Part shown: positions 5,180-34,840 of the stretch, one piece after another
Numbering within the stretch: the first letter of the stretch is position 1
Layout of the letters: the number at the start of each line of letters is the position of its first letter
IMG/VR virus record: IMGVR_UViG_3300047550_002356
Span: 1-38,870 of that record
Direction: 5' to 3' (one strand)
Length of the DNA stretch: 38,870 bases
Source of the DNA: a virus
The notes under the pieces: generated by a model
The model's input: only the letters and a program-made list of their open reading frames with translations
Database searches by the model: none
Told to the model about the DNA's origin: nothing
Program-made: the position numbers and the translations under genes

Positions 5180-7384
5180 TTATACGTATGACAATTCAAT
5201 TACTTTTAATAACTCTACTTTAGTTGTTTCATATTCATTCGGGTTATAGTCAATTATTTTATTTAACCTCCACAATGCGCCGTCAATGAATATTAGAAAT
5301 GTAAAATTCAAATTGTATATGTCAACGTTGTTTAATTTTACATTGCACGTTAATAATTTACTGTCTTTATCGCTTATCTCCGCAACGTATTCACTCCAAT
5401 ATCCATTATATAAATTTGCCGAAGGGTAACTTGATACTCCACTAAAATACAATTCATTCGGTGCGCCGAAATTTATATCAGCCAAAGGCAAATCTGGGTC
5501 ATCTAAATGTCCCGCATAACCGTATGTATTCAATGTGCCTAAAACAGTTGCACCGTTTTTTACATCGTAATTATTTACGCCTGTAACTTTTTTCCGCTGC
5601 ATTATTCTTACAACGTGGTCGGTGCTTTCTTCAACTTTAGGTATTACGTTGCTATTTGTAATCTTTAATATTGTTGGATATATTTTATCTTCGCCTGTAT
5701 AACCCACTAATGGAGTTGCTGCAAATATTACTTCAGCAGTTTGTTTCTCTTTTGCAAACTCATATCCTGTATCAACTATTGTATCGCCGTAACCCTGTGT
5801 GTATTTTTTTTGATACTGTTCATTATAATAATCATTATCCGGCTTATACTTGTATTCAAAATACCTTCCATTAATTTCACTCATTGGCTTTAATCGTATC
5901 GGTTTACTTCTATCTACTTTATATGTCCAATCTAATGCAATACCGCTACCATCTCTCAATAAAAGAAAATCGTTATTATCTACTTTAAACAAATCATCTG
6001 AATGCAATAGTAATTCAGCATCTTGAACATAAAAAGTAATAAATGGTTTTATTATAAGATGCTTTGATTTTTCTTTACTTTCTACAATGTATAAATTGAA
6101 CATCTTCACAAGAGATGCAATAAATTCCCTCATAAATATTCCTTTTGGAATAAGGCTGTTTATGTCTATCGCATCTCCATAGTTTAATGGTGCAATTACG
6201 GCAACATTACTATCAATATTTAATGAAGCATTATATAAAGTCACATATCCCGATGAAACAGAATTAGGAGGGAACATTTGTATATTGACAGATATTTCAA
6301 CCCTGTATGTGTCGTTCTGATTTATTGTATCTGTTGGCGTTCCATTAAAATACATTTGCCTTGTTTGTGTACCCGAAAACAATACATAACTTAATGAAGG
6401 GAACTGATAAAGCAATACATTGTTTTTATACAATTTGCAATATGCAAACATATTACCACCTCCATTCGTGGTAACAGTTATTGCTCCGGCAACAAATATT
6501 GCAAACGTTCCTGTAATTGGGTCAACATTAGTTGAAGTAAAGTTTGTTCCATTACTTGTAAAATTGCTCAATGTATATGTTGAGTACGTTATATCTTTTA
6601 CAACAGTCAACGTACTACCAGCATTTATATTTAACCAATTGTTAGAAACAAATGAATAAGATGCTCTAACTAATGCCGTTGTCTGTTTCAATAACTGCTT
6701 TGAGTTATTCGGTATGATTAGTCTTTTGAATAAATCAGTATTAAAGAAAGTGCTTTCGTATGTATATCCTGTAAACTCAAATATTTTGTCAACATAATCT
6801 TTTACATATAACGCAGGTCGCAATGCTTTTATGTCCCAATCGTGTTTATTAGTAGAGCAATTACCGTAATCTATTAATGGATAATAATAACCACTTGCAT
6901 TATCCCAACTTTGTGTGGCATTGCTTAATGTCCAATTGTGTGTAATATTATTTCCATTTATTACACTCATATCCAAATCCTCCAATCTTGCGTTACCCAT
7001 TGCAGACACAAAGCCACCTAACTCACCGAATACAACGCACTCATATTCTATTGCATCTCCGTCAATGATAATTTCAAGCAATCGCAATATGCCTTTAAAT
7101 ATTTGCGTCTTCTCTATAAACACAATACAAGCAGCGGACTTTGCAGCGTTGAAGTTGTTACCCACGTTAATGACAGAGGGGTTGTATGGATTACTGCTTC
7201 CAAATTGGAATATATGACCGAATATCTTATTGTTAATTGCATTGCCCGGAATTACTATTGTTTTTGAATATGAAGTATTTCTTGACGCAAAATCTTTTAC
7301 ATCGTCAATATTAAATGAATACTCACTTGATATATCTTTTGATAAATCAAGTTGAATGCCCTCTATGAATATTTCTGTTCTCAC
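5180..7384 (-). CDS. Large tail structural protein (baseplate/hub position)
   Basis: A 734-residue virion protein. The N-terminus (FIEGIQLDLSKDISSEYSFN...DFASRNTSYSKTIVIPGN, residues about 6-49) reads like the opening domain I associate with tail-tip proteins in Bacteroidota siphophages. The middle is Asn/Ser/Thr-rich, like beta-sandwich adhesin modules. The C-terminus (VAEISDKDSKLLTCNVKLNNVDIYNLNF) again looks like beta structure. It overlaps the upstream gene by 4 nt (stop/start ATGA-type coupling) and is followed 10 bp later by the tape measure. This position corresponds to distal tail or hub proteins in other siphophages, but gene order here is inverted relative to the usual TMP-then-tip order, so the exact role stays open. 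Confidence 0.6.
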   Translation of the reverse strand: MRTEIFIEGIQLDLSKDISSEYSFNIDDVKDFASRNTSYSKTIVIPGNAINNKIFGHIFQFGSSNPYNPSVINVGNNFNAAKSAACIVFIEKTQIFKGILRLLEIIIDGDAIEYECVVFGELGGFVSAMGNARLEDLDMSVINGNNITHNWTLSNATQSWDNASGYYYPLIDYGNCSTNKHDWDIKALRPALYVKDYVDKIFEFTGYTYESTFFNTDLFKRLIIPNNSKQLLKQTTALVRASYSFVSNNWLNINAGSTLTVVKDITYSTYTLSNFTSNGTNFTSTNVDPITGTFAIFVAGAITVTTNGGGNMFAYCKLYKNNVLLYQFPSLSYVLFSGTQTRQMYFNGTPTDTINQNDTYRVEISVNIQMFPPNSVSSGYVTLYNASLNIDSNVAVIAPLNYGDAIDINSLIPKGIFMREFIASLVKMFNLYIVESKEKSKHLIIKPFITFYVQDAELLLHSDDLFKVDNNDFLLLRDGSGIALDWTYKVDRSKPIRLKPMSEINGRYFEYKYKPDNDYYNEQYQKKYTQGYGDTIVDTGYEFAKEKQTAEVIFAATPLVGYTGEDKIYPTILKITNSNVIPKVEESTDHVVRIMQRKKVTGVNNYDVKNGATVLGTLNTYGYAGHLDDPDLPLADINFGAPNELYFSGVSSYPSANLYNGYWSEYVAEISDKDSKLLTCNVKLNNVDIYNLNFTFLIFIDGALWRLNKIIDYNPNEYETTKVELLKVIELSYV

Positions 7385-10021: not shown

Positions 10022-11179
10022 CTAAACAATAATATATCTTCCGCTTCCTGCATTTTTGCTATACATACTCCAAGCCAATGCAAGGCTCATAACGCAATCA
10101 TCGTGAAATCCTTTGGGTGCTGAATACTTAACTCCTGTGTTAGAGTATTGATATTCAAACATTTCAAGTTCATAAACTATTGCTCCTTCCGGATAAGATA
10201 TTTTTCTTTGTTGTATGGCAGATGCTATACCTTCCATTAATTGCTGCTTTGTAGTTGCAGAAAATTTATACCCCGTAATATCTAATCCATCTTTTCTTAA
10301 TTCTTCAAATATAGGGTCACCAACCCCTGTGCTATCAATTAATATAGGGGCTCTTTTTAAATTCATTATTTCATTCTTTGTCTGTCTCCAATCCTTTTGA
10401 AATCTATCAAAATAGCAAACAGAACCATTCTTATCAAGACCAATTATTACTGTATAGTCAACTGATTTACCTAAATCTATTCCATAACATACTGCCCTAT
10501 CCGGACTAATAGGATATATACATTGTCTTATGTATGTATATCCAAAAGGATTTGCGCTATTATCGCTTGGGTCTGCCATATACTCTTGATTGAAAACGTG
10601 TTCCGGCAGTTCCTTTTTTGCGCTATCTATTTCTGATTTTTCTATATGCGGATTATCGTATGTACTGAATTTGAAACTCTCCCAATCTTGTTCTTTATTT
10701 AATCCTTTTAGATATAATGAGTGAAAAAACTTTTTACCTTTTGGAGTAGATAAAAACAATGCTCTACCTTTATAATCAGTAAGCGTTGGTCTTATGGCAT
10801 TAAGCCATCCTTCTTCTAAATTATTTATGAATGCAGCCTCGTCAATTACGCATAGATGAAATTTTCTTCCACGAAGATTGTCTAATCTTTCTCCGGTAAA
10901 GAATTCATTTGTTCCTCCTGTTGGATATTCTATTAGTAGTTTATTTACATTATGTGGGAATGGAACTCTCTGTACTAATTTAGAAAAGAATGTTTCAGCA
11001 AGCGCATACGTTGGGGTTATGTATGCTACTGACTGTCCATTTAATGCTGCGGTAATTATTTCAACTTGAGATAATTCAGATTTACCGAAACGCCTTCCGC
11101 ACATTACAACACGAAATCGTGCCGTTGAATTGTATATCCTTTCTTGATTAATATGTGGTTCCGGTAATTCAAGAGTCAT
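10022..11179 (-). CDS. terL: Terminase large subunit
   Basis: A 385-residue DNA-packaging motor. The ATPase domain has a Walker A motif CGRRFGKS (27-34), a Walker B LCVIDEA (109-115, catalytic Glu114) and a coupling-motif-like LFLSTPKGK (141-149). The RNase H-like nuclease domain shows GIDLG with Asp235, LIDSTGVGD with Asp282 and FHDDCVMSLALAW with Asp360/361, the three acidic positions expected. The length is short for a terminase (typically 400-500) but no domain is missing. It overlaps the small-subunit-like gene by 4 nt, which supports co-translation. It is followed by a 35-bp gap with no terminator and then the tail chaperone gene. Confidence 0.95.
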   Translation of the reverse strand: MTLELPEPHINQERIYNSTARFRVVMCGRRFGKSELSQVEIITAALNGQSVAYITPTYALAETFFSKLVQRVPFPHNVNKLLIEYPTGGTNEFFTGERLDNLRGRKFHLCVIDEAAFINNLEEGWLNAIRPTLTDYKGRALFLSTPKGKKFFHSLYLKGLNKEQDWESFKFSTYDNPHIEKSEIDSAKKELPEHVFNQEYMADPSDNSANPFGYTYIRQCIYPISPDRAVCYGIDLGKSVDYTVIIGLDKNGSVCYFDRFQKDWRQTKNEIMNLKRAPILIDSTGVGDPIFEELRKDGLDITGYKFSATTKQQLMEGIASAIQQRKISYPEGAIVYELEMFEYQYSNTGVKYSAPKGFHDDCVMSLALAWSMYSKNAGSGRYIIV

Positions 11180-11547
11180 AATATTGTTTTGCCTTTTACA
11201 AACACAACTTCTATTTTTCCGTCATTAATCAAATTAGTAGTTTCCTTTGGCTTTCCATATACCCTTGTAAGCAATGTATCTATTGAATACAAAGAACCAT
11301 TCTTATATGATTTAAACATTGCGTGTGCAATAGTTTTTTCTAATATGGTAGCATTAGGATTTTTATATACATCTTCTAATTCTTCCATATTCATTTGAAG
11401 CATCACCTGTATAGTATCATTTATTTCAGATAACTTATATCCATTATTTCTTAATAGCGTAGTGAATTTTTTAGGTCTGCCTTTCTTATTAATCCTTTCG
11501 GGATGCGTATGAAATCCTTGTCCTTTTATTGCTTTAGGGTTTGCCAT
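11176..11547 (-). CDS. Putative terminase small subunit
   Basis: A 123-residue basic protein immediately upstream of, and overlapping by 4 nt, the large terminase gene. The N-terminus HTHPERINKKGRPKKFTTLL (about 13-32) carries a GRPKK AT-hook-like element. A C-terminal helical segment (TLLTRVYGKPKET, about 94-107) ends in a beta-like tail, consistent with small DNA-packaging or DUF5681-type proteins near phage terminases. I infer it recognises packaging DNA from location and basicity. The start codon abuts the stop of the IbrB-like gene, so the modification cassette and packaging genes form one continuous operon. Confidence 0.6.
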   Translation of the reverse strand: MANPKAIKGQGFHTHPERINKKGRPKKFTTLLRNNGYKLSEINDTIQVMLQMNMEELEDVYKNPNATILEKTIAHAMFKSYKNGSLYSIDTLLTRVYGKPKETTNLINDGKIEVVFVKGKTIL

Positions 11548-12057
11548 TTATTTAGGTTTCCAAGATTTACTAAATTCTTTATTCTTAAATACTTCGCTTT
11601 TAGGTATTCCTTTTGTATATAAAAGCCTAACTACTTCTTCCTTTTCCATCATCAATCTACTCATTATTTCTTCACCACTTAATCCCTGCTTTATCATATC
11701 ATTTACTATATCACTCATTTGCAATACTGCGTGTGTTCCTCTTGCCCTATTGTGCCTTATTGTAGCCATTTGTTGTTGGGATATATCAGTAGGCTTGAGC
11801 ATAACAGTAGGCACGTAACCGTCTGTAATGGCGTATATCTCTTTGTGTCCGGATACTGTCCAACGATGAAATCCATCAACGATTGTCATATCGGGGTTTA
11901 TTACTATTGGCTGCGTCCAACCATCTTCCGTTATTGATATTTTTAACAGTTTAAGTTCCGGCGGTGCTACCTTGTTTGGGTTATAGTTGTTTGGTTTTAA
12001 TTCGTCTCTGTGCCTCCATACAATATTGCTTAAAGGCTGATTTGCATATTTATTCAT
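11548..12057 (-). CDS. IbrB-like ParB/Srx-fold protein
   Basis: A 169-residue protein of the ParB N-terminal (Srx-like) fold, most like IbrB. Visible marks are the opening VWRHRDELKPNNYNPNKVAPPE (about 13-34), the TQPIVINPDMTIVDGFHRW block (48-66) with the DGFHR motif at 61-65, and the ATIRHNRARG segment (about 97-106) that corresponds to the ParB box II region. A helical C-terminus (ILM-rich, about 125-150) may be a small HTH. In bacteria, IbrB is encoded next to IbrA, a PAPS-reductase-like protein; here the PAPS-reductase-like gene is two genes upstream, separated only by a coupled unknown gene. The biochemical role of the pair is not established to my knowledge. It overlaps the upstream gene by 8 nt and abuts the terminase small subunit gene. 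Confidence 0.75.
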   Translation of the reverse strand: MNKYANQPLSNIVWRHRDELKPNNYNPNKVAPPELKLLKISITEDGWTQPIVINPDMTIVDGFHRWTVSGHKEIYAITDGYVPTVMLKPTDISQQQMATIRHNRARGTHAVLQMSDIVNDMIKQGLSGEEIMSRLMMEKEEVVRLLYTKGIPKSEVFKNKEFSKSWKPK

Positions 12058-12547
12058 ATCTTACATTTATATTTGAATGGTCAATAATATTTTTCCCCCC
12101 ACCGTATATTCTTCTTTCGCTATTCATTAAGAAATCTATCTGTCTTTTATCTTTATCTGTTTTGTTATCTTTATTTAATAATCCGGCAAAGTATATCTCT
12201 CTGTCATTTAATTTCATTTTAAGTAGCGTTTCTTCATCTTCGGTAGGAGCAGGGAATCTATATTCTTTGCTATCATCTATTAATGCTTTATTCAAAACCT
12301 GTACTGCTTTTATGGGTCTGCCCATTTCCCAATATTCATAATCACCTATTTCAAGATATATGTATTGCTTTTTATAGAATGATTTAGCCTTACCGTATAT
12401 TCTTATTATCCTAATAAAGTCTTCGAATAGTTTATCGTTATTAAATAACTTCCTTGTTGTGTATGTATGCGGAAATGTGTTTTGATAACTGACCGCATTT
12501 TTCCATACAGTATTATTTAATATTTCTTCCCAAGGTTTGCTATTCAT
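12050..12547 (-). CDS. Unknown protein of the PAPS-reductase/ParB cassette
   Basis: A 165-residue protein I cannot assign to a named family. Conspicuous segments are YLEIGDYEYWEMGRPI (about 64-79), LNKALIDDSKEYRFPAPTE (about 85-103) and the C-terminal SERRIYGGGKNIIDHSNINVRYE. The YWEMG segment next to conserved-looking charged residues suggests an enzyme or a nucleic-acid-binding protein rather than a structural one. Its start overlaps the stop of the PP-loop gene by 4 nt and its stop overlaps the IbrB-like start by 8 nt. Such double coupling implies stoichiometric synthesis and a shared complex or pathway with its neighbours. No signal peptide or membrane segment is present. Confidence 0.65.
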   Translation of the reverse strand: MNSKPWEEILNNTVWKNAVSYQNTFPHTYTTRKLFNNDKLFEDFIRIIRIYGKAKSFYKKQYIYLEIGDYEYWEMGRPIKAVQVLNKALIDDSKEYRFPAPTEDEETLLKMKLNDREIYFAGLLNKDNKTDKDKRQIDFLMNSERRIYGGGKNIIDHSNINVRYE

Positions 12548-13722
12548 AATCCATATATTTTTTCTGCTTCTTCAAGTGTTATTCCCAAGTCTTTTCTTTT
12601 TTTAATAGCCTCTGCCCTTAATACACTACTTTGTCTTCCTTTAAAATCTCCCCTTATAGCAACTCTGCATAATACTTTATATGATACTCCCGATAATGGG
12701 TGAGCATCTTCTTCTTCTATCTTTGCTTTTGTTTTATTTTTGTGCATACCGATATAAGAGTCTATCGTTGATTGCACTTGTACTTTGTAATCGTGGTCAT
12801 AACTATCTAATATGATATTAAGATATTCACTCCACTTTAAATCATCCGGCTTTACATTAGCATTCGAATATAAGTGAGTGTTACCATATCGCCAAGCGGT
12901 TGCTACTCCTTCAACTCTATTAATCATTTTATGCCATAATTCAGGGAAACATTCTGCATAAACCCACAATCCTCTTAATGGTTCTTCTCCGTATGGAGGA
13001 CATACCCTTTGAGTAAGAAACTTATTATTTAATCTTGTTTGATTAAATATATCATAGGTCTTATTATAATCCCATCCATATTTATTTACGCATAGCCAAA
13101 CATCTTCGCTTGACATATCATAAATAGGGAAACACCTATACTGATTGCTTGATGCCTCGCTTGTTGCCTGTATGTAAGAGTCATTCTTTTTTGTTGCTAT
13201 TACTTGAAACCTCCTTAAACTTTCTTGTGTTCTTATTCCTGTAAGCATAGCAATCCTTCCGTCTTTCCTTTCGTATAAGTATGGAGCAAACTCTTGAAAT
13301 GACATTCCTTTTTTAAAACGTGGATGGCTTGTTATTACATTATCCGGCAAATCCCTACACCATAAATCTTTCTTATCGCTATCCCAACAATACCAAAATG
13401 GTTCTTCATTTGAACAAGCATTACGGTGCTTAAATTCTAAACAAAACCATTTAAGATTTACATCTTTATTTTGCCTTACCCTTTCTACATATTCTATTGT
13501 AGGTGGATGTATTGCTTCCTCATCAAAGAATACTGCTTCTAATGGTAATCTGTTTTTTTCTTTTGCTACTTGTAGCGCAAGATTTAATACAGTAGTGCTA
13601 TCTTTCCCTCCCGAAAAACTAACCACAACTTTATCAAATGAGTCGTATATGTATCTTATTCTATTTAAAGCAGCATCATATACGTTATCCCCATCGTATT
13701 CTTTTTGCCTAATCCTTGCCAT
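12544..13722 (-). CDS. PAPS reductase-like PP-loop protein (IbrA-like)
   Basis: A 392-residue member of the PAPS reductase / adenine nucleotide alpha-hydrolase superfamily, close in layout to IbrA and DUF3440 proteins. The PP-loop SGGKDS sits at 37-42, followed by the beta strand EAVFFDEEAIHPPT (about 63-76) and by LTGIRTQESLRR (about 159-170), the region that binds the nucleotide in this superfamily. Several Cys residues (for example CSNEEPFWYC, WCRDLP, RCFPIYD, RVCPPYGEEP) could bind metal or carry sulfur. Family members activate or transfer sulfur or AMP; the substrate here is unknown. The start shares one base with the cupin stop (TAATG), and the end overlaps the next gene by 4 nt. Confidence 0.85.
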   Translation of the reverse strand: MARIRQKEYDGDNVYDAALNRIRYIYDSFDKVVVSFSGGKDSTTVLNLALQVAKEKNRLPLEAVFFDEEAIHPPTIEYVERVRQNKDVNLKWFCLEFKHRNACSNEEPFWYCWDSDKKDLWCRDLPDNVITSHPRFKKGMSFQEFAPYLYERKDGRIAMLTGIRTQESLRRFQVIATKKNDSYIQATSEASSNQYRCFPIYDMSSEDVWLCVNKYGWDYNKTYDIFNQTRLNNKFLTQRVCPPYGEEPLRGLWVYAECFPELWHKMINRVEGVATAWRYGNTHLYSNANVKPDDLKWSEYLNIILDSYDHDYKVQVQSTIDSYIGMHKNKTKAKIEEEDAHPLSGVSYKVLCRVAIRGDFKGRQSSVLRAEAIKKRKDLGITLEEAEKIYGL

Positions 13723-14516
13723 TATTTTGTTTTTATTGCATCAATATCTTTTGCAGGAATACCATTTACTATTGTCCTATTAATCATAGGATGGAATTCA
13801 TCTTCCGGTCCAAAGTCACTATCCGGATGGAATGCAATAACATCCATACTGCTATCGTATGTATTAAACTTATGCGTTCCGCTTTCATAGTAATTGCCAT
13901 CTAATCCAATCTTTCTGTCTGTTCCTGCATATTCCTTTATAACAAATATGCACCCTTCCACTAATGGTAAATTACCAAATGGAGTTACACATTCTCCTTC
14001 TCCTCTGATTACAATTCCTATTCTATGGCTTGGGTGAGTGTGAGATGTTTGCACAATGCTTTTTGGGAAATGCAAATGATTTAAGCAAGGGTCTCCTTTT
14101 TTTACAGGCGATATTAATAGGCTATCAGTACAACCATCAATATATTTTAATCTACCTTTTTCTTCTACAACACCGCCAATGTTTGTGTATGCTTTATAAT
14201 TATTTTCTGCATACAATCCTTTATCTGTTATCACTTCAATTACTATTGCTTTAAATGTTCCGAATAAATCAAAATAGCCGTGATGAGAAAAGTAAGTGTC
14301 TTTTGGTAAGTCTGCTTTTATTCCATTCTTAATTGTCAATGATGCTTTACCGGAATAGACAAATACAAAATAAGTATGATTGTCTTTAGGTATCATACCA
14401 ACACCATCTATTACATTGTAATAAACAAGAGGATACTTTGGGTGATTTGTCTCATCAAATATCAAACCCGAATTTGATATACCAAAACTTATGAAAGACT
14501 CTGTTTCCTGTTTCAT
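13722..14516 (-). CDS. Cupin-domain protein
   Basis: A 264-residue protein with a double-stranded beta-helix (cupin) in its second half. The QTSHTHPSHRIGIVIRGEGECVTPFG region (about 152-177) provides His-x-His and Glu ligands, and ESGTHKF (about 213-219) the last His. The N-terminal half (YFVFVYSGKASLTIKNG) may be a second, degenerate cupin. Cupins include sugar isomerases, dioxygenases and small-molecule sensors; nothing here picks one. Because it is stop-start coupled (shared base at 13722) to the PAPS-reductase-like gene, I infer a joint pathway, perhaps an oxidative or sugar-related step. It begins 10 bp after the ParB-like gene. It could also be a virion or accessory protein. Confidence 0.7.
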   Translation of the reverse strand: MKQETESFISFGISNSGLIFDETNHPKYPLVYYNVIDGVGMIPKDNHTYFVFVYSGKASLTIKNGIKADLPKDTYFSHHGYFDLFGTFKAIVIEVITDKGLYAENNYKAYTNIGGVVEEKGRLKYIDGCTDSLLISPVKKGDPCLNHLHFPKSIVQTSHTHPSHRIGIVIRGEGECVTPFGNLPLVEGCIFVIKEYAGTDRKIGLDGNYYESGTHKFNTYDSSMDVIAFHPDSDFGPEDEFHPMINRTIVNGIPAKDIDAIKTK

Positions 14517-14526
14517 AATATATGTT

Positions 14527-15099
14527 TTATTGTTTATTATATACTCTGATTATTTCCATTAGTGCATCTTCTATTTTTTCAAATAGAAAATTCTGTTTCA
14601 CTTTATTTATAGTATCAAGCAATAGCAATTTGTTTTCGTGTAGCATTATTAATTCAAATGTTGAATAGCCATCGTCTGTTGCTTTTGGCGAACGCTCATT
14701 ATCATCTTCGCTATCATTAATATCTTCAATCTTTATCTCCGGCATATCTGCGCCCCAATCATCTAACTTTTCAGCATCCCATTCGTTCGCAAGAATATCG
14801 TAATCCCATTCACCGTATGATAGATTGTCCTTTATAGTAAACTCTTTTTGTTGTTCTTCTGTCAACCCAACAACTTTTGATACAGGAACTTTTTTATATC
14901 CTAATTCGATTGCTGCACGATAACGCATATTACCGCCAATGATAACCATATCGTCATTAACTATGATTGGTCTTATCTCAAGCATCTGTGGGAACTCCTG
15001 TATTGACTTGACAAGTTTTTTAAACTTATAATCTTTTATAACTCTTGGGTTATTAGGATTTAGTTTTAGTTTCTTAATATCAATTTGCTGTGTTGTCAT
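14527..15099 (-). CDS. ParB N-terminal domain protein
   Basis: A 190-residue protein with a clear ParB/Srx N-terminal domain: IDIKKLKLNPNNPR (6-19), IRPIIVNDDMVIIGGN (42-57) and the GGNMRYRAA box (55-63). After it comes LSYGEWDYDILANEWD and LDDWGADMPEI (about 93-122), a stretch that in many phage and bacterial proteins links a ParB domain to a DNA methyltransferase. The methyltransferase is missing here, so this may be a stand-alone version that works with the separate methyltransferase of the same cassette (16091-16618). The acidic linker at 125-135 is followed by a helical C-terminus. It overlaps the glycosyltransferase gene by 4 nt. Predicted role: DNA binding or a nuclease-like/CTP-dependent activity; unproven. 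Confidence 0.8.
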   Translation of the reverse strand: MTTQQIDIKKLKLNPNNPRVIKDYKFKKLVKSIQEFPQMLEIRPIIVNDDMVIIGGNMRYRAAIELGYKKVPVSKVVGLTEEQQKEFTIKDNLSYGEWDYDILANEWDAEKLDDWGADMPEIKIEDINDSEDDNERSPKATDDGYSTFELIMLHENKLLLLDTINKVKQNFLFEKIEDALMEIIRVYNKQ

Positions 15100-16103
15100 T
15101 TGATTGTATTTTGGTATAATTGATTACGCTTTATATTTACCTTTTCTAAATTGTAGTTTTCATTTGCCCATTCGTATGATTTTAATCCCTGCTCAATAAC
15201 AAAGTTCTTATTGTCTGCGCAATACTTTATTTGTTTATACCAATCGCTTGCGCTATCAATAGGTATAATAGGACATCCTTTATATGGAGGCACATTTGAG
15301 GCTATTGTAGGGCATTTCTTTGCTGCCCCCTCTAATACCTTTAGGTTAGATTTCATTGAATTAAATCGGCTATAAACAAGCGGAGCAAGGGTAATATCTG
15401 CATCATTGTAGAAATTCATATAAGTATCAACAGGCTTTGCATTTCTTATTGTGCTATTTAGTTTTAATCCGCAAGTAAAGTTGTGTATGATTTTATGCCA
15501 TATAATTTTAGTATATTCATTTCGTTCATCGTATCCGCAAATAACAAATTGAGTTTTGTCCTTTAGCATCCTATCTGATTGTATTCTCTTAAAAGGATTG
15601 CGCAATAGGTCAACATCTTTTTCGTGTGTTATACTTCCGGCATACACAATCGTTGTTTTATCGTTGTTTATTTTCTCATTTGTGAATTGGTCTTTTCCGT
15701 ATGGTAATGCGTTAGGCAGTATTTCTACATTTGAATTTATGCTTTTTATTTCATTGTATAGCAATTCATTTGTGCAAGTAACAAGGTCTGCCTCTTTAAT
15801 GTGTGCTAATATGTTTTGTGTAGGATATGATTGGGCAAGAATATGCCAAGGGTCAAGATGCCAATAATCGTCAATATCAACTATGAGTTTAAAGTTGTAT
15901 TTCTTTTTATATTCTATTATGGTTTGTAGTTCTATGTTGTAGATATAACGATTAATTAAAAGTATATCAAAGTTTTCTGAAAGTATTTCATCGTTTAATG
16001 TATCGGTGAACATTGCATACTCCTTGTTTAGATAGTAAACAGGAAGCATTAATCTATGGTAACCTACTCCGCTATTTCTTTGTGTTACTACTAATATCCG
16101 CAT
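15096..16103 (-). CDS. Glycosyltransferase, GT-B type
   Basis: A 335-residue cytoplasmic glycosyltransferase. It shows a GT-B-like layout: MRILVVTQRNSGVGYHRL at the N-terminus, an IVDIDDYW segment (about 74-81), the inter-domain strand TTIVYAGSITHEKDVDLL (about 149-166) and a C-terminal domain with ADITLAPLVYSRFNSMKSNLKVLEGAAKKCPTIAS (about 235-269), in which the S.LK.LEG...P.IAS block resembles the nucleotide-sugar-binding end of GT4-like enzymes. The acceptor is unknown: modified DNA bases, a virion protein or a host surface glycan are all possible. Its placement between a methyltransferase and a ParB-domain protein favours nucleic acid. It overlaps the methyltransferase gene by 13 nt and the ParB gene by 4 nt. 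Confidence 0.8.
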   Translation of the reverse strand: MRILVVTQRNSGVGYHRLMLPVYYLNKEYAMFTDTLNDEILSENFDILLINRYIYNIELQTIIEYKKKYNFKLIVDIDDYWHLDPWHILAQSYPTQNILAHIKEADLVTCTNELLYNEIKSINSNVEILPNALPYGKDQFTNEKINNDKTTIVYAGSITHEKDVDLLRNPFKRIQSDRMLKDKTQFVICGYDERNEYTKIIWHKIIHNFTCGLKLNSTIRNAKPVDTYMNFYNDADITLAPLVYSRFNSMKSNLKVLEGAAKKCPTIASNVPPYKGCPIIPIDSASDWYKQIKYCADNKNFVIEQGLKSYEWANENYNLEKVNIKRNQLYQNTIK

Positions 16104-16618
16104 TCGAATAATTTAGTATAGTGTGTAGGGTATTTCATATCCCCTATTAGTTTATAATCGAACCCTTCAAACATCTTTACCCAATCTACTTGTGGCTTTA
16201 TGTTTATATGCCCCCAATCCTCATCTCTTGGACTTGTATCGCTTGTGCTACTAAATAGAATATAGTTTGGTTTTATTTTGTTAAATAGATTATCAATTTG
16301 TTTATCAGTCATATGCTCTGCAACTTCAATGAATAGCATCAAATCAGTCGTAATTGGCTCATTAATTATTTTTAGATATGGATAGTTTGATTTGATATGT
16401 TCTTTGTGTATTTTGAATTTCTCCCACACATAAACTTCTTTCCCTTGTTCGTAAAATGTATTTGCATATACTCCCATTCCTGCACCGTAATCAAGAACAG
16501 TATTAAATTTTATAATTAGTTGCTCATAGGTTTTATTTGTTAGACTTACAAAATCGGGGTTTCTTCCGGTAATCCCCATTTCGATTTCTGCCTTGTAAAA
16601 TTCCTGTTCACTTAACAT
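16091..16618 (-). CDS. Class I SAM-dependent methyltransferase
   Basis: A 175-residue methyltransferase. Motif I is VLDYGAGMGVYA (41-52), an acidic residue that would hold the SAM ribose follows in VYVWEKFKI (about 62-70), and the motif-IV region is MLFIEVAEHMTD (94-105), as in small-molecule (UbiG/Methyltransf_23-like) enzymes. It lacks the NPPY/DPPY motif of amino-methylating DNA enzymes and the PCQ motif of cytosine enzymes, so the target is more likely a sugar or small molecule than an unmodified base. It overlaps the glycosyltransferase gene by 13 nt, suggesting the two act on the same product. The 27-bp upstream gap holds part of a TTGTAA-N5-TTACAA palindrome. Confidence 0.8.
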   Translation of the reverse strand: MLSEQEFYKAEIEMGITGRNPDFVSLTNKTYEQLIIKFNTVLDYGAGMGVYANTFYEQGKEVYVWEKFKIHKEHIKSNYPYLKIINEPITTDLMLFIEVAEHMTDKQIDNLFNKIKPNYILFSSTSDTSPRDEDWGHINIKPQVDWVKMFEGFDYKLIGDMKYPTHYTKLFECGY

Positions 16619-16651: not shown

Positions 16652-16885
16652 TTCATCAAAATGGTACATAAGCCTTGATAACATTTCCATTACGCAATGG
16701 CTACACCAATATGTACATACATAATTGCAATCAATATACTTCCTGTATATCTGTTCGTATTTATGCAATATATCAAATGGAATATTTCTTACATAACCTA
16801 ACTTAATTGTTTCAAAGTTTATACTATTCTGTTCTAAAAATTGTATTTCTTCATCAGTCAAATTTCGTAGCATAACCTTGTTCAA
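16646..16885 (-). CDS. Small Cys-rich protein of unknown function
   Basis: A 79-residue protein with no recognised family. Its C-terminal third has a tight cysteine cluster, CNYVCTYWCSHCVME (about 53-67), with C-x3-C-x3-C-x2-C spacing that could form a small metal site, followed by a helical LSRLMYHFDEL end. The N-terminal part (LTDEEIQFLEQNSINF) is helical and polar. The start overlaps the SNase-like gene by 32 nt. The last two codons plus stop are part of the TTGTAA-N5-TTACAA palindrome. Confidence 0.6.
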   Translation of the reverse strand: MNKVMLRNLTDEEIQFLEQNSINFETIKLGYVRNIPFDILHKYEQIYRKYIDCNYVCTYWCSHCVMEMLSRLMYHFDEL

Positions 16886-17165
16886 TTAATGTTTGGTTCA
16901 TATTTATTCCGGAGTATGTTAGGACTACTATTGGTCTTCCGTATTTATCTAATCTCTTACTTTCTATTTCAACTTCACTTCCAATAGGCATTTTACTTGA
17001 GAGGAAATTTAGAGAACGCTTGCCATCTTCTTCTGATAGTTCCGGCGCATCAATACCTGATAGGCGACAGTTAATCACCCAAAACATTCTAAACCCTAAA
17101 TCAATTTTCAGTTTTACTGTATCTCCGTCAATGACTTTGACAACGGTTGCTTTGTATTTGTACAT
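16854..17165 (-). CDS. Staphylococcal-nuclease-like (SNase) thermonuclease
   Basis: A 103-residue SNase-fold OB nuclease predicted to cut DNA or RNA with calcium. The motif VIDGDTVKLKI (11-21) gives Asp13/Asp15, CRLSGIDAPEL (33-43) gives Arg34, Asp39 and Glu42, and LDKYGRPIV (72-80) gives Arg77; these match the metal ligands and the two catalytic arginines plus Glu of staphylococcal nuclease. It is shorter than the secreted bacterial enzymes (about 150 residues) and has no signal peptide, so it should act in the host cytoplasm, perhaps in host DNA degradation or recombination. The start overlaps a 49-codon membrane peptide gene by 52 nt. Confidence 0.85.
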   Translation of the reverse strand: MYKYKATVVKVIDGDTVKLKIDLGFRMFWVINCRLSGIDAPELSEEDGKRSLNFLSSKMPIGSEVEIESKRLDKYGRPIVVLTYSGINMNQTLIEQGYATKFD

Positions 17166-29661: not shown

Positions 29662-29945
29662 CGAATATCTTTTTGTGGTTGTACTTGACCTTGTATTTCT
29701 CCAATCAATCGTCCATTCAATCCGTTATTATCGCAGCCAAAATATGTTTCTGATATTTGCAACCCTGCATATTTAGGATTATATACATTGTATGTTCCGA
29801 TATATCTTTGATTGTGCGCTCCTCTCATATCAATATAACCGATTGTTGGAATACCTACATTAACCCAAGCGATTAAATCATCAATCAAATTTTGCGACAA
29901 TGTTATATTCGCTTCGCTGCTATTGTTTACAAAATGTATTATCAT
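29658..29945 (-). CDS. Small fibre-operon protein
   Basis: A 95-residue protein (NITLSQNLIDDLIAWVNVGIPTIGYIDMRG; YAGLQISETYFGCDNNGLNGRLIG). It is coupled by 4-nt overlaps to the fibre upstream and the next gene downstream, so it is probably part of the adsorption module. No family recognised. Confidence 0.5.
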   Translation of the reverse strand: MIIHFVNNSSEANITLSQNLIDDLIAWVNVGIPTIGYIDMRGAHNQRYIGTYNVYNPKYAGLQISETYFGCDNNGLNGRLIGEIQGQVQPQKDIR

Positions 29946-32900
29946 CTGATATAATTTCTTAAAGCACTATTAACTGTTATTGACTCCCCAATATATGATG
30001 TTCTTGTTGTTGTCCCTGCTCTTGTAGCGTGAACATTTTTTACATATATAACGTGAGTATCTGTTGGGTTTGTTGAACCAACATCAATACTTGCTGTTGC
30101 ATCTTGATTTACTAAATTGCAGTTATCTAACATTAAATAATTATTAACGGGGTTGTTGTCCCTATCAATTATCAAAACATTCTTTGTTGTACCATACGTA
30201 TAATAATTACCTTTTAAAATCAATGTCATTTGATTTCCATATCCTTTTATCTTAATTGGTTCTTCGGCAGATTGGACATTGCAATTTATTATAGCAATGC
30301 CCTTGCCTGCAACACCAACTGAATTTGGATTTGTTGTAGATATAGCCAAAGCATATTTTGCTGCGGGGCTATTAGTTCCCTCTGCTAATGCATTGATTGT
30401 TGCATTTTGTAATTTTATTACATCGTTTGCATTTATTTCAATGCGATTATTTACATCAGTAGATACAAAAGCAGTATTAGCAGAATTTAAATTTTCAATA
30501 GAAAGGTATTTTACAAATGGTACTTCTGTTTCCACATTGCCTATATTATAAAGGACGCTTGTATTATATGCAGCCATTGAATTAAATATAACGCCACCAA
30601 CGACAGTCGTATTCGCACCGCATCTCCATTTTATATTTCCAATGTTAAATATATACTTACCATTAAATTGCCAACCACCGACACCAATCGCTGGGTCAAA
30701 TTCCGAATTTGATAAAAACGCATCAATGGTTTTAATATTTACAACCGCATCAATTTGGTTGCTGTTACTTGCGTGTGCTTGTGCTGTATATGTAAACGCA
30801 CAGAATGTCCAATAATCCGGATTTACTGTGTTTAAATTTGAAACAACATTATTAACGTTAATATTAATTTTTACTTTTTTATTCCCTCCGCTTAATCTTG
30901 TTGTCTTAAATGCCATTAACATTAAATCATATCCTTCTACATAATCAGCATCTAAATTAAATTCCTGCACACCATTAATCAACGATAATGCAAATGAAGG
31001 CAATATTGCTTTTAATATTCTAACATATAATTTAGCACCAAAATGATTTGCGTATATTGGGTAATTAATATGAGTTAATGTTAAAATAGGTTGCTTATAT
31101 CCATATATGTATCTCAATGTTAAATCACCTTTCAATGAAGACTCCCATACGCTTGTGTCTGCGGTATCTTGTACATAAATCATATATATACCAAATGTAG
31201 AATTGATATATACTAATTCAGTACCATTGTAAAAATACGCATTGATATTATTTTGCAATATACTTGCGACAGAACTATTATTTGTTGAAGAAAATCCAAT
31301 ATCGGCTGTTACGTTTGAATTTGCAGAACTTCCCGCTTCATTACCATTTTGTGCGGGGTTATCACTTCCAACTGTCCATTTGCCTTGCAATACAATAATT
31401 ACCGCTTTAGTTATAGTTCCCGCTTGTAAATCGTCATACGCTGCATTCCTTGCACTCCAAGGGTCAGGGAAAGGACTAATTGTAGAACCTCTTTTAGCAT
31501 TATTTTTTTGTGTATTATATTGCGTATTTGTACTTGTTATACTCGCATAAGTTAATCCCGTTACTATTGCTGCTCCCGCTCCCGAATACCTTTTATCAAC
31601 AAAATAAACTCCTAAATTTGGTTCGCTAATACTTACACTTCCCCAACTTCCATCGCCTCTTAAATAAGTTGAAGCCGATGGCGTTCCCGTAATAGCAGTA
31701 CCAAAATAGGCAACATTCGCTAATGGTACTGAAGTAAATGCAGATGTTCCATTACCAATTGCAAATCCTGTTAATGTACCAACACCGATACCACCTCTTG
31801 AAACTGCTAATGTACCACTCCATCCCAATGTCAATGATGCTGCACGTAGCAAAGATGTTGCCGGAGTGCCTCCTAAAGTTAATGTGACATTCGTGTCATC
31901 GGTTTTTGTTAGTGCTGCTCCTGTTATATCCGAACCTGCTATTGTAAAAAATTCATACGCTGTATTCCCTGCGTTTCTCCGAAGCAATTGCGATGCCGTT
32001 CCCGCTACTCCTGTAAATGCACTTGTGCCGTTACCAATTAATACGCCTGTCAAAGTTGATGCACCGCTTCCACCTCTACCAACTGCAAGAGTTCCTGTCC
32101 ATCCAAGAGTTAAAGATGCAGCACGTAATAATGAAGTTGCGGGAGTTCCTCCCAATGTTAATGTGACGTTTGTATCATCTGTCTTTGTTAACGCTGCACC
32201 CGTTACATCGCTCCCCGCAATAGTGAAATATTCCAATGCAGTTGCCCCTGCATTCACCCTCAATAATTGATTTGCAGTTCCTAATGCTGACAATCCTGTA
32301 CCACCTCTTGCTACTGATAATTGCCCCGCCCAACCAATTGTGTGCGTGCTTGTCGCACTTGTTATTGTTACGTTTGTATCATTAGCAAATGTTTGCGTGG
32401 CTGCAGTTAAAGAATTTAAAGAGGTTATACCGCTACCGCCACTTGGAGTTGCACCGTATGTTACCCTTTTTGTTGTTGCATCGTAATACAAAACATTTGC
32501 AGTTGTTGTATTGGCTATATTTTGCAATTCAAATGCACCGTCAAATCTTACAACTCCATCGTCAACCCAAATTGCGTAATTGTTTGTCGCTCCCGTTGTA
32601 CCTTCAGAAATATATAATGAGGAAGCATTTGTAATAACACCTGTACCCGTTGTAATTGCAAACCCTTTTATTGCAACAGTTGTAGTTAATAAATAAGAAC
32701 CCGTTGCTGGAGCAGTTCGCGCAACCCCACAAAATAAATTTTCAGCAAACGATGATGTCGCAGAGTTTGGCATTGTACCACCAACAGAATTTTGCGTGAA
32801 CGCATTTCTATAACTTGTAGCACTTGACCCCGTCAATAAATAATTCCCCGCTGAACTACTTCCGTTTGTATTTGTAGCACTAAATAAATTATTTGAAAAT

Positions 32901-34840
32901 TGTGTTGATGATTGAAATGTTTTTGAACCTCCAAATGTTTGCGTACCCGTTGTTACTAATCCCCTTGCACTTGCAGATGCATCGGGTATATTGAATGTGT
33001 GCGTATTCGTTGCACTTGCAATGTTAAAATCCGTTCCCGTTGTTCCCGTTGCTAATGTTTGCGCTGCACCCGTTTGCAAATTACCCGCAGTTCCAATGCT
33101 TGTAATTGCGCTTGATATATAGGTTGGGGTAAAATATTCTAACGCTGTAGCACCCGTATTGACTCTTAATAATTGACCTTGTGTACCTAATGCACTTAAT
33201 CCCGTTCCTCCTCTTGATATTGCCAATTGCCCTGTCCAACCCAATGTTAATGATACCGCTTGAAGCAATGCCGTTGAAGGTGTCCCGCCAAGCGTTAATG
33301 TTACGTTTGTATCGTCTGTTTCTGTTAATGCTTGACCGCTTGCAATATCACTTGCAGCAATAGTTCCCCAAGAAGGCAACGCACTTGCAGCACCCGTTCC
33401 CGTTTGTGTTAAAAATCTTTTTGCTGATAATGTATTCCCTGCAAGTCTTATAGGCGTTCCCCCTGTATCTCCTACAATAATATCTCCAAGAGTAGTCATT
33501 GGGTTACTCATTCCGGCAGTTGCTCCATAATTTGGGATGTTTAACGTTGTACCGTTAAACGTTGCAACTCCACTCGTACCCGTTGTTGTTAGAGTGATTG
33601 GGGATTGATAATCTGTATTTGCAACTGCTGAAGATATTGCAGTTCCATTGCCTTTTAATAAACCCGTTATTGTTGTTGTTAATGTAATAGCGGGAGTTGT
33701 TGTTGCAGTCGCTACCGTCCCTGCAAATCCATTTGCAGATACAACAGAAACTGTTGTTACTGTCCCTCCTGTTGGTGCATTATACAATGGGTATTCTGTA
33801 CCCGCTGAATTTTTGAAATATGGTAAGTTGTCATTTTTGGCATAAAATACTCCAAAATTCGGAGTTGCCATTGTGCCCGTTAACGATGATAAATTAAATG
33901 AATTACCCGTTACATCTTGCTGACCAATAATCCTACCCGAAAATGTTTTATCCCCTGCAAATGTTTGTGCAGCAGTTGATACAACGCCTCTTGTACCCGT
34001 TCCCGCAGTTGGTATATTTATTGTTATCGTACCGCTTCCCGTAATTGGTGAACCCGAAACGTTTATATCTGTTCCCGTTGTACCCGTTGCAATCGCAACG
34101 CTTGTAACAGTTCCGCTACCCTTTGAATTAAATGTATTCCAATCGGTAGAACTTAAATAACCGTTCTGCGTTGAATTAGCAACTTGTATGCTAAATGCAC
34201 CCGTTGTATTGTTATACAACAACGGACTTGTCGCAGACAATGATGTTAATGAAATACCTCCTAACCCTGCCAAAGTATAATTTGGTATGTTAAGCGTATT
34301 GGAAACAAATGTTGCAGCACCACTATTACCTGTTGTTGTTAATGTTATAGCATTTTGTTTGTTGTTGAATGTTGTCCAATCAGCAGAAGATAATGCCCCA
34401 CGATTTGATGCAGATGCTGTTGGTAAATTAAATGTGTGAGTGCTTGTTGCAGATGATATATTAAAATCAGTACCACTTGTACCAACAACCAAACTTTGCG
34501 ATGATGCAGAAAGAGAATTTAATGCAGTAATTCCACTTGCAGGGACTGCAACATTTTTCCATTTTGCTGCGACACTATCATATTGCAATATCTGCCCATT
34601 GCTTAATGATGTAAGCAATACATCACTCAATAATGATATTGAATAATCTGAACTTGTTGGCACTACCGCTCCCGTCCTCCCGTTAAATGATGTTACTCCA
34701 CTTGCACTTGCAATTAAATTTTGTAGTGTTTGTAAAGTTGTTTTATATGAAGTTCCTGTGCCGGGGTCACCAACAATCATTAAATCAGTAAGAGTAACTA
34801 ATGTCTTTAAATCTAATTCATTAATTTTTTTATTCGCCAT
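29942..34840 (-). CDS. Tail fibre / receptor-binding protein
   Basis: A 1632-residue fibre, the largest gene. The N-terminus (KINELDLKTLVTLTDLMIVGD, then VTSFNGRTGAVV) is the usual virion-attachment part of siphophage fibres. The middle consists of repeated blocks such as TKTDDTNVTLTLGGTPATSL, LGWTGTLAV-RGG and IGNGTSAFT, including two near-identical units of 93 residues and several partial ones. The last 550 residues lack these repeats and read like a beta-helix adhesin domain (NVVSNL, YIFNIGNIKW, CNVQSAEEPIKI, LMLDNCNLV), the likely receptor or glycan-binding end. It overlaps the next gene by 4 nt and starts 3 bp after the tail-completion-like gene. Confidence 0.85.
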   Translation of the reverse strand: MANKKINELDLKTLVTLTDLMIVGDPGTGTSYKTTLQTLQNLIASASGVTSFNGRTGAVVPTSSDYSISLLSDVLLTSLSNGQILQYDSVAAKWKNVAVPASGITALNSLSASSQSLVVGTSGTDFNISSATSTHTFNLPTASASNRGALSSADWTTFNNKQNAITLTTTGNSGAATFVSNTLNIPNYTLAGLGGISLTSLSATSPLLYNNTTGAFSIQVANSTQNGYLSSTDWNTFNSKGSGTVTSVAIATGTTGTDINVSGSPITGSGTITINIPTAGTGTRGVVSTAAQTFAGDKTFSGRIIGQQDVTGNSFNLSSLTGTMATPNFGVFYAKNDNLPYFKNSAGTEYPLYNAPTGGTVTTVSVVSANGFAGTVATATTTPAITLTTTITGLLKGNGTAISSAVANTDYQSPITLTTTGTSGVATFNGTTLNIPNYGATAGMSNPMTTLGDIIVGDTGGTPIRLAGNTLSAKRFLTQTGTGAASALPSWGTIAASDIASGQALTETDDTNVTLTLGGTPSTALLQAVSLTLGWTGQLAISRGGTGLSALGTQGQLLRVNTGATALEYFTPTYISSAITSIGTAGNLQTGAAQTLATGTTGTDFNIASATNTHTFNIPDASASARGLVTTGTQTFGGSKTFQSSTQFSNNLFSATNTNGSSSAGNYLLTGSSATSYRNAFTQNSVGGTMPNSATSSFAENLFCGVARTAPATGSYLLTTTVAIKGFAITTGTGVITNASSLYISEGTTGATNNYAIWVDDGVVRFDGAFELQNIANTTTANVLYYDATTKRVTYGATPSGGSGITSLNSLTAATQTFANDTNVTITSATSTHTIGWAGQLSVARGGTGLSALGTANQLLRVNAGATALEYFTIAGSDVTGAALTKTDDTNVTLTLGGTPATSLLRAASLTLGWTGTLAVGRGGSGASTLTGVLIGNGTSAFTGVAGTASQLLRRNAGNTAYEFFTIAGSDITGAALTKTDDTNVTLTLGGTPATSLLRAASLTLGWSGTLAVSRGGIGVGTLTGFAIGNGTSAFTSVPLANVAYFGTAITGTPSASTYLRGDGSWGSVSISEPNLGVYFVDKRYSGAGAAIVTGLTYASITSTNTQYNTQKNNAKRGSTISPFPDPWSARNAAYDDLQAGTITKAVIIVLQGKWTVGSDNPAQNGNEAGSSANSNVTADIGFSSTNNSSVASILQNNINAYFYNGTELVYINSTFGIYMIYVQDTADTSVWESSLKGDLTLRYIYGYKQPILTLTHINYPIYANHFGAKLYVRILKAILPSFALSLINGVQEFNLDADYVEGYDLMLMAFKTTRLSGGNKKVKININVNNVVSNLNTVNPDYWTFCAFTYTAQAHASNSNQIDAVVNIKTIDAFLSNSEFDPAIGVGGWQFNGKYIFNIGNIKWRCGANTTVVGGVIFNSMAAYNTSVLYNIGNVETEVPFVKYLSIENLNSANTAFVSTDVNNRIEINANDVIKLQNATINALAEGTNSPAAKYALAISTTNPNSVGVAGKGIAIINCNVQSAEEPIKIKGYGNQMTLILKGNYYTYGTTKNVLIIDRDNNPVNNYLMLDNCNLVNQDATASIDVGSTNPTDTHVIYVKNVHATRAGTTTRTSYIGESITVNSALRNYIR

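Follow-up and report, generated by a model that had tools for sequence, protein, structure and literature searches.

PP-loop ATPases adenylate a carbonyl or phosphate oxygen, enabling its substitution by nitrogen or sulfur, and ParB-fold proteins typically act on DNA. Gat-QueC, a glutamine amidotransferase (GATase)/PP-loop enzyme, puts dG+ into the DNA of phage 9g together with DpdA (PMC6884629), and the PP-loop ATPase DndC takes part in the phosphorothioation of DNA (PMC10853773). The IbrA/IbrB pair is carried by hundreds of sequenced phages, where its members are annotated only as “co-activators.” Known pairs include those of Flavobacterium FCV-1/FCL-2, Streptococcus CHPC877, Rhizobium L338C, and mycobacteriophage Akoma (gp4/gp5); the papers found give no biochemical mechanism for them. 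The present analysis concerns a cassette with such a pair in the IMG/VR virus record IMGVR_UViG_3300047550_002356, a stretch of 38,870 bases with 33.8% G+C that is called “the window” below.

The cassette is a real multi-gene block adjoining the terminase genes. About 60 distinct IMG/VR lineages keep the order of a second ParB gene (ParB2), a bicupin gene, IbrA, IbrB, and the genes for the small and large terminase subunits (TerS and TerL), and because of this conservation the arrangement goes far beyond chance. The reading favored here, held at close to but not quite even confidence, is that the genes together are a single mobile module with which phages modify nucleic acid, most likely phage DNA. 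The block and its upstream neighbors in the window are as follows, with positions counted along the whole stretch:

14527..15099, minus strand: ParB2, 190 aa, with a ParB_N domain (GGNMRxRAA-type motif; Pfam ParB_N 33.6 bits, cut-off 26.3).
13722..14516, minus strand: bicupin, 264 aa (alignment and AlphaFold fold matches).
12544..13722, minus strand: IbrA-like PP-loop ATPase, 392 aa (PAPS_reduct with SGGKDS intact, and DUF3440).
12050..12547, minus strand: optional accessory protein (“Unk”), 165 aa (PHxYxxR...YWxMGRP family, by alignment).
11548..12057, minus strand: IbrB-like ParB/Srx-fold protein, 169 aa (DGFHR box and RHNRARG box; PHROG 2159).
11176..11547, minus strand: probable TerS, 123 aa (position and size; a weak DUF5681 match with an expectation value, E, of 0.003 is below the cut-off).
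10022..11179, minus strand: TerL (Terminase_6N 36.1 bits and Terminase_6C 26.2 bits, both above cut-off; PHROG 2, E 1e-47).
15096..16103, minus strand: glycosyltransferase, a possible accessory that is not generally conserved (Glyco_trans_1_4 39.1 bits).
16091..16618, minus strand: methyltransferase-domain protein, a possible accessory (Methyltransf_23 28.6 bits, cut-off 27).

The initial annotation described four tightly coupled open reading frames (ORFs), cupin-like, phosphoadenylylsulfate (PAPS)-reductase-like, unknown, and ParB-like, with overlaps of 1, 4, and 8 nt, and these overlaps are found on the minus strand exactly at the coordinates given there. The four genes are indeed linked, but the unit is larger than a four-gene set, with five genes or more in addition to the terminase, and ParB2, which begins the block 10 nt before the cupin gene, had been missed. 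On the 3′ side, the TerS gene abuts the stop codon of IbrB and overlaps the TerL gene by 4 nt. Further upstream, the glycosyltransferase gene overlaps ParB2 by 4 nt and is itself overlapped by the methyltransferase gene by 13 nt; a homologue of the glycosyltransferase is found near one other cassette (L029). The cassette has a G+C content of 33.3%, the same composition as the window.

Identity of the pair is supported by the domain layout. IbrA of the window matches PAPS_reduct (57.4 bits, cut-off 22.5) over residues 32–224, DUF3440 (42.5 bits, cut-off 25) over residues 237–330, and PHROG 2302 (E 7e-90), and its PP-loop residues, F36, S37, G39, K40, D41, and S42, are invariant in an alignment of 27 diverse relatives. 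IbrB matches PHROG 2159 (E 1e-63); its single sequence reaches 18.6 bits with Pfam ParB_N, below the cut-off of 26.3, and the profile of its family finds ParB/Noc/Spo0J proteins among the solved structures (4umk, E 2e-6). IbrB is mostly 65–82% identical across cassettes and 38.5% identical to a protein annotated as IbrB in Rhizobium phage L338C, and identities of 30–38% are seen with cultured-phage relatives annotated as IbrA or IbrB. Relatives of IbrA occur in 215 phage records and those of IbrB in 226, spread almost equally over organisms (Flavobacterium 90/90, Mycobacterium 55/55, Streptococcus 21/21), and the two genes are neighbors or near-neighbors in most of the phages opened, of which Hendrix was viewed at its IbrB end only. 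From the domain and PHROG matches and the paired occurrence in phages, the pair is thus a genuine one that was known before, and the likeness to IbrA/IbrB that had been noticed at first is borne out. Within the cassette IbrAs, and only there, three cysteines (C94, C241, and C258) reach a conservation of at least 95%.

Neighborhoods were compared with IbrA, the cupin, and Unk as queries. Nearly all viral contigs keep, on a single strand, the order ParB2–cupin–(PPL2)–IbrA–(Unk)–IbrB–TerL, where PPL2 denotes a second PAPS-reductase-like PP-loop protein of ~210–280 aa that lies between the cupin and IbrA in many relatives. Loci queried with IbrA hold IbrA by construction; their linkages to ParB2, IbrB, the cupin, and TerL do not arise in this way, nor does the presence of IbrA in the cupin-queried loci, which are the best 80 of 269 matches. 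After clustering of the IbrA proteins at 95% identity into 66 clusters, the core members are found with most of them (cupin with 61, ParB2 with 60, IbrB with 62, and TerL with 56) and the accessory members with fewer (PPL2 with 20, Unk with 17, a PD-(D/E)XK-like protein with 8, and GATase with 6). For viral cupins, IbrA is present whenever the locus continues past the cupin: the two exceptions end within 50 nt of it. Most cassettes encode a TerS-sized protein in the gap from IbrB to TerL, the median of which is 372 nt (129 loci). The conserved linkage with IbrA/IbrB that the initial annotation had put forward for checking is thus supported by the viral loci.

Accessory genes of the relatives are informative about the possible chemistry. 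A class-II GATase is encoded as a separate gene after PPL2 in L171, L202, L204, L207, L208, L211, and L213; its N-terminus reads MCGIWGF or MCGLWGF, the L202 protein scores 29.4 bits with GATase_6 (cut-off 27), and none is encoded in the window. In these relatives the GATase gene lies between PPL2 and IbrA (at 6567–7097 of both L202 and L213), forming a split asparagine-synthetase-like pair. A rearranged order, ParB2–IbrA–IbrB–PPL2–GATase–cupin (24% identity)–TerS–TerL, is found in L059–L061 and L066 (at 6001–9639 in L059). These are IMG/VR records that look isolate-derived; a search of E. coli genomes for an L059-type provirus gave no match, and the GATase search in cultured phages gave weak matches only. 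In L053, a short-chain dehydrogenase gene precedes the cupin gene. That glutamine amidotransferases recur suggests that some lineages, at least, transfer nitrogen.

Judged from sequence identities, the block is transferred between phages with unrelated terminases, and IbrA and IbrB are exchanged together. Among 45 distinct complete loci, median identities are 67% for IbrB, 59% for the cupin, 58% for IbrA, 47% for ParB2, and 23% for TerL. For example, L175 and L191 are 85% identical over IbrA, the cupin, and IbrB with 16% identity in TerL, and so the block moves as a unit and keeps its place beside the terminase. The pair L023 and L051 has identities of 95% in TerL, 86% in the cupin, 61% in IbrA, and 69% in IbrB. 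The distances of IbrA and IbrB correlate most strongly (rho 0.62, 0/500 permutations), and those of ParB2 and the cupin show no correlation (rho −0.01).

The cupin of the window is a bicupin, whose AlphaFold model has a mean confidence score (pLDDT) of 88. Its best fold matches in the PDB are DUF861/(S)-ureidoglycine aminohydrolase proteins (Z 17.9–18.9) and BacB (Z 16.6), over 194–210 residues; no solved structure was retrieved with it by sequence, and with Pfam Cupin_2 it stays below the cut-off that a cellular relative, in L129, exceeds (51.5 versus 27.2 bits). In an alignment of 26 sequences H159, H161, and H215 are invariant and make a candidate three-histidine metal site in the C-terminal cupin, where H215 is read as the motif-2 histidine because the cellular relatives place it in a PGxxFIIxxxGxHxFRT context. 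Also invariant are R165, at a position where many cupins have glutamate, and, within the family, Cys129 and Cys144. The bicupin is hence a probable metal-dependent enzyme. No match to it was found by tblastn in 50,697 phage records, and the combination of a cupin with IbrA was not found described in the literature searched, for which subscription journals and preprints were outside the scope; neither the extended cassette with the cupin nor its relatives with an amidotransferase appear to have been described there.

Furthermore, 61 relatives of the cupin are found in bacterial genomes. Clear proviral cassettes account for four of these loci (L096, L097, L112, and L115); in a fifth, L154, a ParB2-like gene and the cupin lie at a contig end. 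Of the other cellular relatives, 45 have a called ORF, and 21 of these have a same-strand PP-loop gene at most two genes away, as do 4 of 215 control genes. The full-length PP-loop neighbor scanned in L129 is an Asn_synthase/GATase_7 protein (Asn_synthase, E 6e-71), and chromosomal clusters of the cupin (35–53% identity) with an asparagine-synthetase-like protein, a frequent neighbor of the bacterial relatives, occur in metagenome-assembled genomes of Verrucomicrobia, Planctomycetes, Acidobacteria, and others. A set of the cupin, a membrane-like protein, and an asparagine-synthetase-like protein is met repeatedly in different phyla, in L129 (7896–11310), L130, L131, L142, L146, and L151, and the membrane-like protein, where scanned (L129), has a TOP6A/Spo11-like Toprim domain. 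No description of these recurrent clusters was found in the literature searched.

The gene between IbrA and IbrB, earlier called unknown, is no fixed member of the set: Unk is optional, as its count among the clusters shows. Its AlphaFold model is confident (pLDDT 90), and no convincing fold match was obtained in the PDB (best Foldseek E 0.45; Z at most 3.0), which does not by itself prove a new fold. One significant predicted structural relative is viral (A0A516LRX9, E 7e-6), and the sequence search of solved structures gave a chance match only. A tetratricopeptide-repeat reading of Unk was rejected: the TPR_8 match (E 0.029) is below the cut-off and the alpha/beta model does not bear it out. 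In L093–L095 shorter relatives of Unk adjoin IbrA/ParB2 where no cupin is encoded, which ties Unk to IbrAB and not to the cupin. Other lineages have in the same slot, in place of Unk, a PD-(D/E)XK-like protein of ~190 aa whose PDDEXK_1 match (E 3e-4 to 2e-3) is just below the cut-off. Examples of it are at 1700–2305 of L057 and 6988–7551 of L175, and in L170, L167, and others. In L094 and L095, a protein that looks GT-A-like by eye, with no Pfam match, is encoded between Unk and IbrA; together with the overlapping glycosyltransferase and methyltransferase genes of the window, it suggests that glycosylation may be a recurring accessory.

With the PP-loop intact, ParB-fold proteins typically acting on DNA, amidotransferases recurring among the relatives, and the precedent of Gat-QueC, modification of DNA is therefore the favored role of the module. 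The initial annotation had suggested modification of nucleic acid or anti-defense; for the former, the GATase, PPL2, and nuclease of the relatives raise the plausibility of what stays an inference. The chemistry, the substrate (DNA, or else RNA, a protein, or a small molecule), and the timing may be pictured as follows. IbrA, through its PP-loop and ATP, would adenylate a carbonyl (or phosphate) oxygen of the target and open it to a nitrogen or sulfur nucleophile. IbrB and ParB2, as ParB-fold, DNA-clamp-like proteins, would recruit IbrA to phage DNA and set site and timing, and the bicupin would prepare or reshape the added small group or the modified base. A split glutamine amidotransferase, present in some relatives and made of the class-II GATase and the second PP-loop ATPase, would feed nitrogen into the same step. 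Unk, or the PD-(D/E)XK nuclease in its slot, would be an accessory, possibly acting on unmodified DNA, and the position beside terS/terL would couple the process to packaging. By analogy, amidation as with Gat-QueC or PP-loop activation of DNA as with Dnd may be at work. In its most specific form, namely an undescribed chemistry in which the bicupin and the PP-loop ATPase(s), in some lineages with a GATase, build an amide- or amidine-type (or thio) group on a DNA base, with IbrA installing it, two ParB-fold clamps guiding it, and packaging coupled to it, the proposal is possible though doubtful. Sulfur chemistry is less favored because no sulfur donor gene and no family-wide cysteines were found.

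Several points weigh against this role. To our knowledge, a modified nucleoside is known for no IbrAB phage. C94, C241, and C258 are not kept as a set in the aligned IbrA relatives of Flavobacterium or Mycobacterium, and no DpdA/TGT, QueD/E, FolE, or cysteine desulfurase is found among the window proteins scanned, some small ORFs being outside the scan. Some chromosomal neighbors of the cupin, e.g., nonribosomal peptide synthetase (NRPS) genes, point to small-molecule chemistry and not necessarily to DNA. The published phenotype of IbrAB, as cited in PMC4541368, concerns the immunoglobulin-binding (eib) genes of E. coli, and the PP-loop enzymes QatC and Cap9 can modify proteins (PMC13329287).

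Among other explanations, an unlikely one that survives best is that IbrA and IbrB are a regulatory pair that acts on transcription, either as a co-activator or as a switch for late genes; ParB2 and the cupin would serve it as sensor or regulator, and the set would control late genes or initiation of packaging. This agrees with the annotation of IbrAB as “co-activator of prophage gene expression,” a description that PMC4490671 uses and that PMC4541368 connects with E. coli IbrAB, with the terminase that always adjoins the cassette, with weak cupin matches to AraC_binding sensor domains, and with the position of E. coli ybdNM (PAPS reductase/DUF3440 and ParB-like) next to a LysR regulator (PMC9068703). 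However, the fully conserved PP-loop and the invariant histidines of the cupin imply catalysis, an amidotransferase, a second PP-loop enzyme, and a nuclease in the operon would be superfluous for a regulator, and several cultured phages have IbrAB away from the terminase. Modification of a protein or synthesis of a small molecule, as an anti-defense or host-takeover agent with the ParB-fold proteins as nucleoside triphosphate-using partners, is rather improbable, and still a serious rival because of the QatC and Cap9 precedents (PMC13329287) and the chromosomal company of the cupin, whose cellular relatives adjoin asparagine synthetase-like and NRPS genes. The cupin fold is also closest to small-molecule enzymes, but two core members of the ParB fold, a DNA-binding type, the terminase linkage, and the optional PD-(D/E)XK nuclease argue against this rival.

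Far less probable is that the phage carries a relative of the Dnd, Ssp, or type 4 BREX systems for phosphorothioation, a kinship that the earlier comparison of IbrA with DndC had hinted at. The PP-loop superfamily is common to DndC, SspD, and BrxP, PADLOC gives weak DndC matches (E 3e-11), and DndB is a ParB-superfamily protein (PMC10853773); the shared superfamily thus stands, but the cassette IbrA scores 31.9 bits with the DndC equivalog TIGR03183, whose cut-off is 290.4, and none of the Dnd partners is seen. Membership in Dnd/Ssp was rejected on this score. No DndD/DndE, SspB/SspC partner, or cysteine desulfurase is found among the scanned window proteins; the neighbors in the cassette are ParB2, the cupin, and the terminase. 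A 7-deazaguanine pathway was also rejected, as no partner genes (TGT/QueD/QueE) are found among the same proteins; the QueC test stayed below the cut-offs with both Pfam (21.4 versus 22 bits) and TIGR00364 (14.5 versus 150.3). That IbrA is an auxiliary metabolic PAPS reductase boosting host sulfate assimilation among incidental neighbors, as its PAPS_reduct match and the common annotation of such phage proteins might suggest, is scarcely credible and was rejected: the catalytic C-G-(I/L/V)-H tail of PAPS/APS reductases is present in 0 of 62 cassette IbrA proteins, NCBIfam scores are 15.0 versus a cut-off of 165.1 bits for CysH and 15.5 versus 235.3 for adenylylsulfate reductase, and ParB proteins are invariant companions.

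Elsewhere in the window, a small staphylococcal-nuclease-like (SNase) protein is encoded at 16854–17165, some hundreds of bases before the start of the methyltransferase gene, and a 1632-aa protein at 29942–34840 has no PHROG match at E 0.001. In the linear record, ~25 kb separates TerL from a portal match at 35914–37896 (PHROG 11226, E 9e-37), a distance that suggests a permuted assembly or an unusual gene order.

The cassette sets IbrA and IbrB among a bicupin, a second PP-loop ATPase, an amidotransferase, a nuclease, and the terminase, and this company suggests a definite, testable chemistry. If modification of DNA is indeed the role, the long-unexplained pair of some 215 phage records would gain a biochemical function; if confirmed, it would be a new class of phage DNA modification with a modular route of spread between unrelated phages.

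Compared with the described systems, the locus is closest to the cultured IbrA/IbrB phages, which likewise have a PAPS_reduct plus DUF3440 protein with an adjacent ParB-fold protein, but lack the cupin and the 165-aa protein (IbrA 27–33% and IbrB 37–44% identical). Akoma, of cluster-B type (L071, 1–4474), has ParB (gp1), PAPS reductase (gp4), ParB (gp5), and TerL (gp6), the cassette scheme minus the cupin, with TerL directly downstream of the pair. The combination of a class-II amidotransferase and a PP-loop ATPase in a phage is shared with Gat-QueC/DpdA of phage 9g, where its action on DNA is proven (PMC6884629); here, in contrast, a PAPS-reductase-like protein is the PP-loop partner, the GATase has its own gene and occurs in some relatives only, and DpdA/TGT and preQ0 genes are not seen. 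With Dnd, Ssp, and type 4 BREX, the cassette has in common a PP-loop ATPase of the same superfamily and a ParB-superfamily partner (DndB in the former); it differs from them in the score far below the DndC cut-off, in the absence of DndD/E- or SspB/C-like genes from the cassette, and in having no cysteines conserved throughout the IbrA family. A bicupin fold is common to the cassette cupin, DUF861/(S)-ureidoglycine aminohydrolase, and BacB at 11–13% identity, a comparison made at the fold level alone: with (S)-ureidoglycine aminohydrolase 4e2q, for example, Z is 17.9 at 11% identity, and the invariant Cys129, Cys144, and R165 belong to the cupin family of the cassette. Finally, the chromosomal clusters, of which the literature searched holds no description, have no IbrA, IbrB, or ParB2 and in some cases have neighbors suggestive of small-molecule biosynthesis, but they share with the cassette a homologous cupin linked to PP-loop/GATase proteins.

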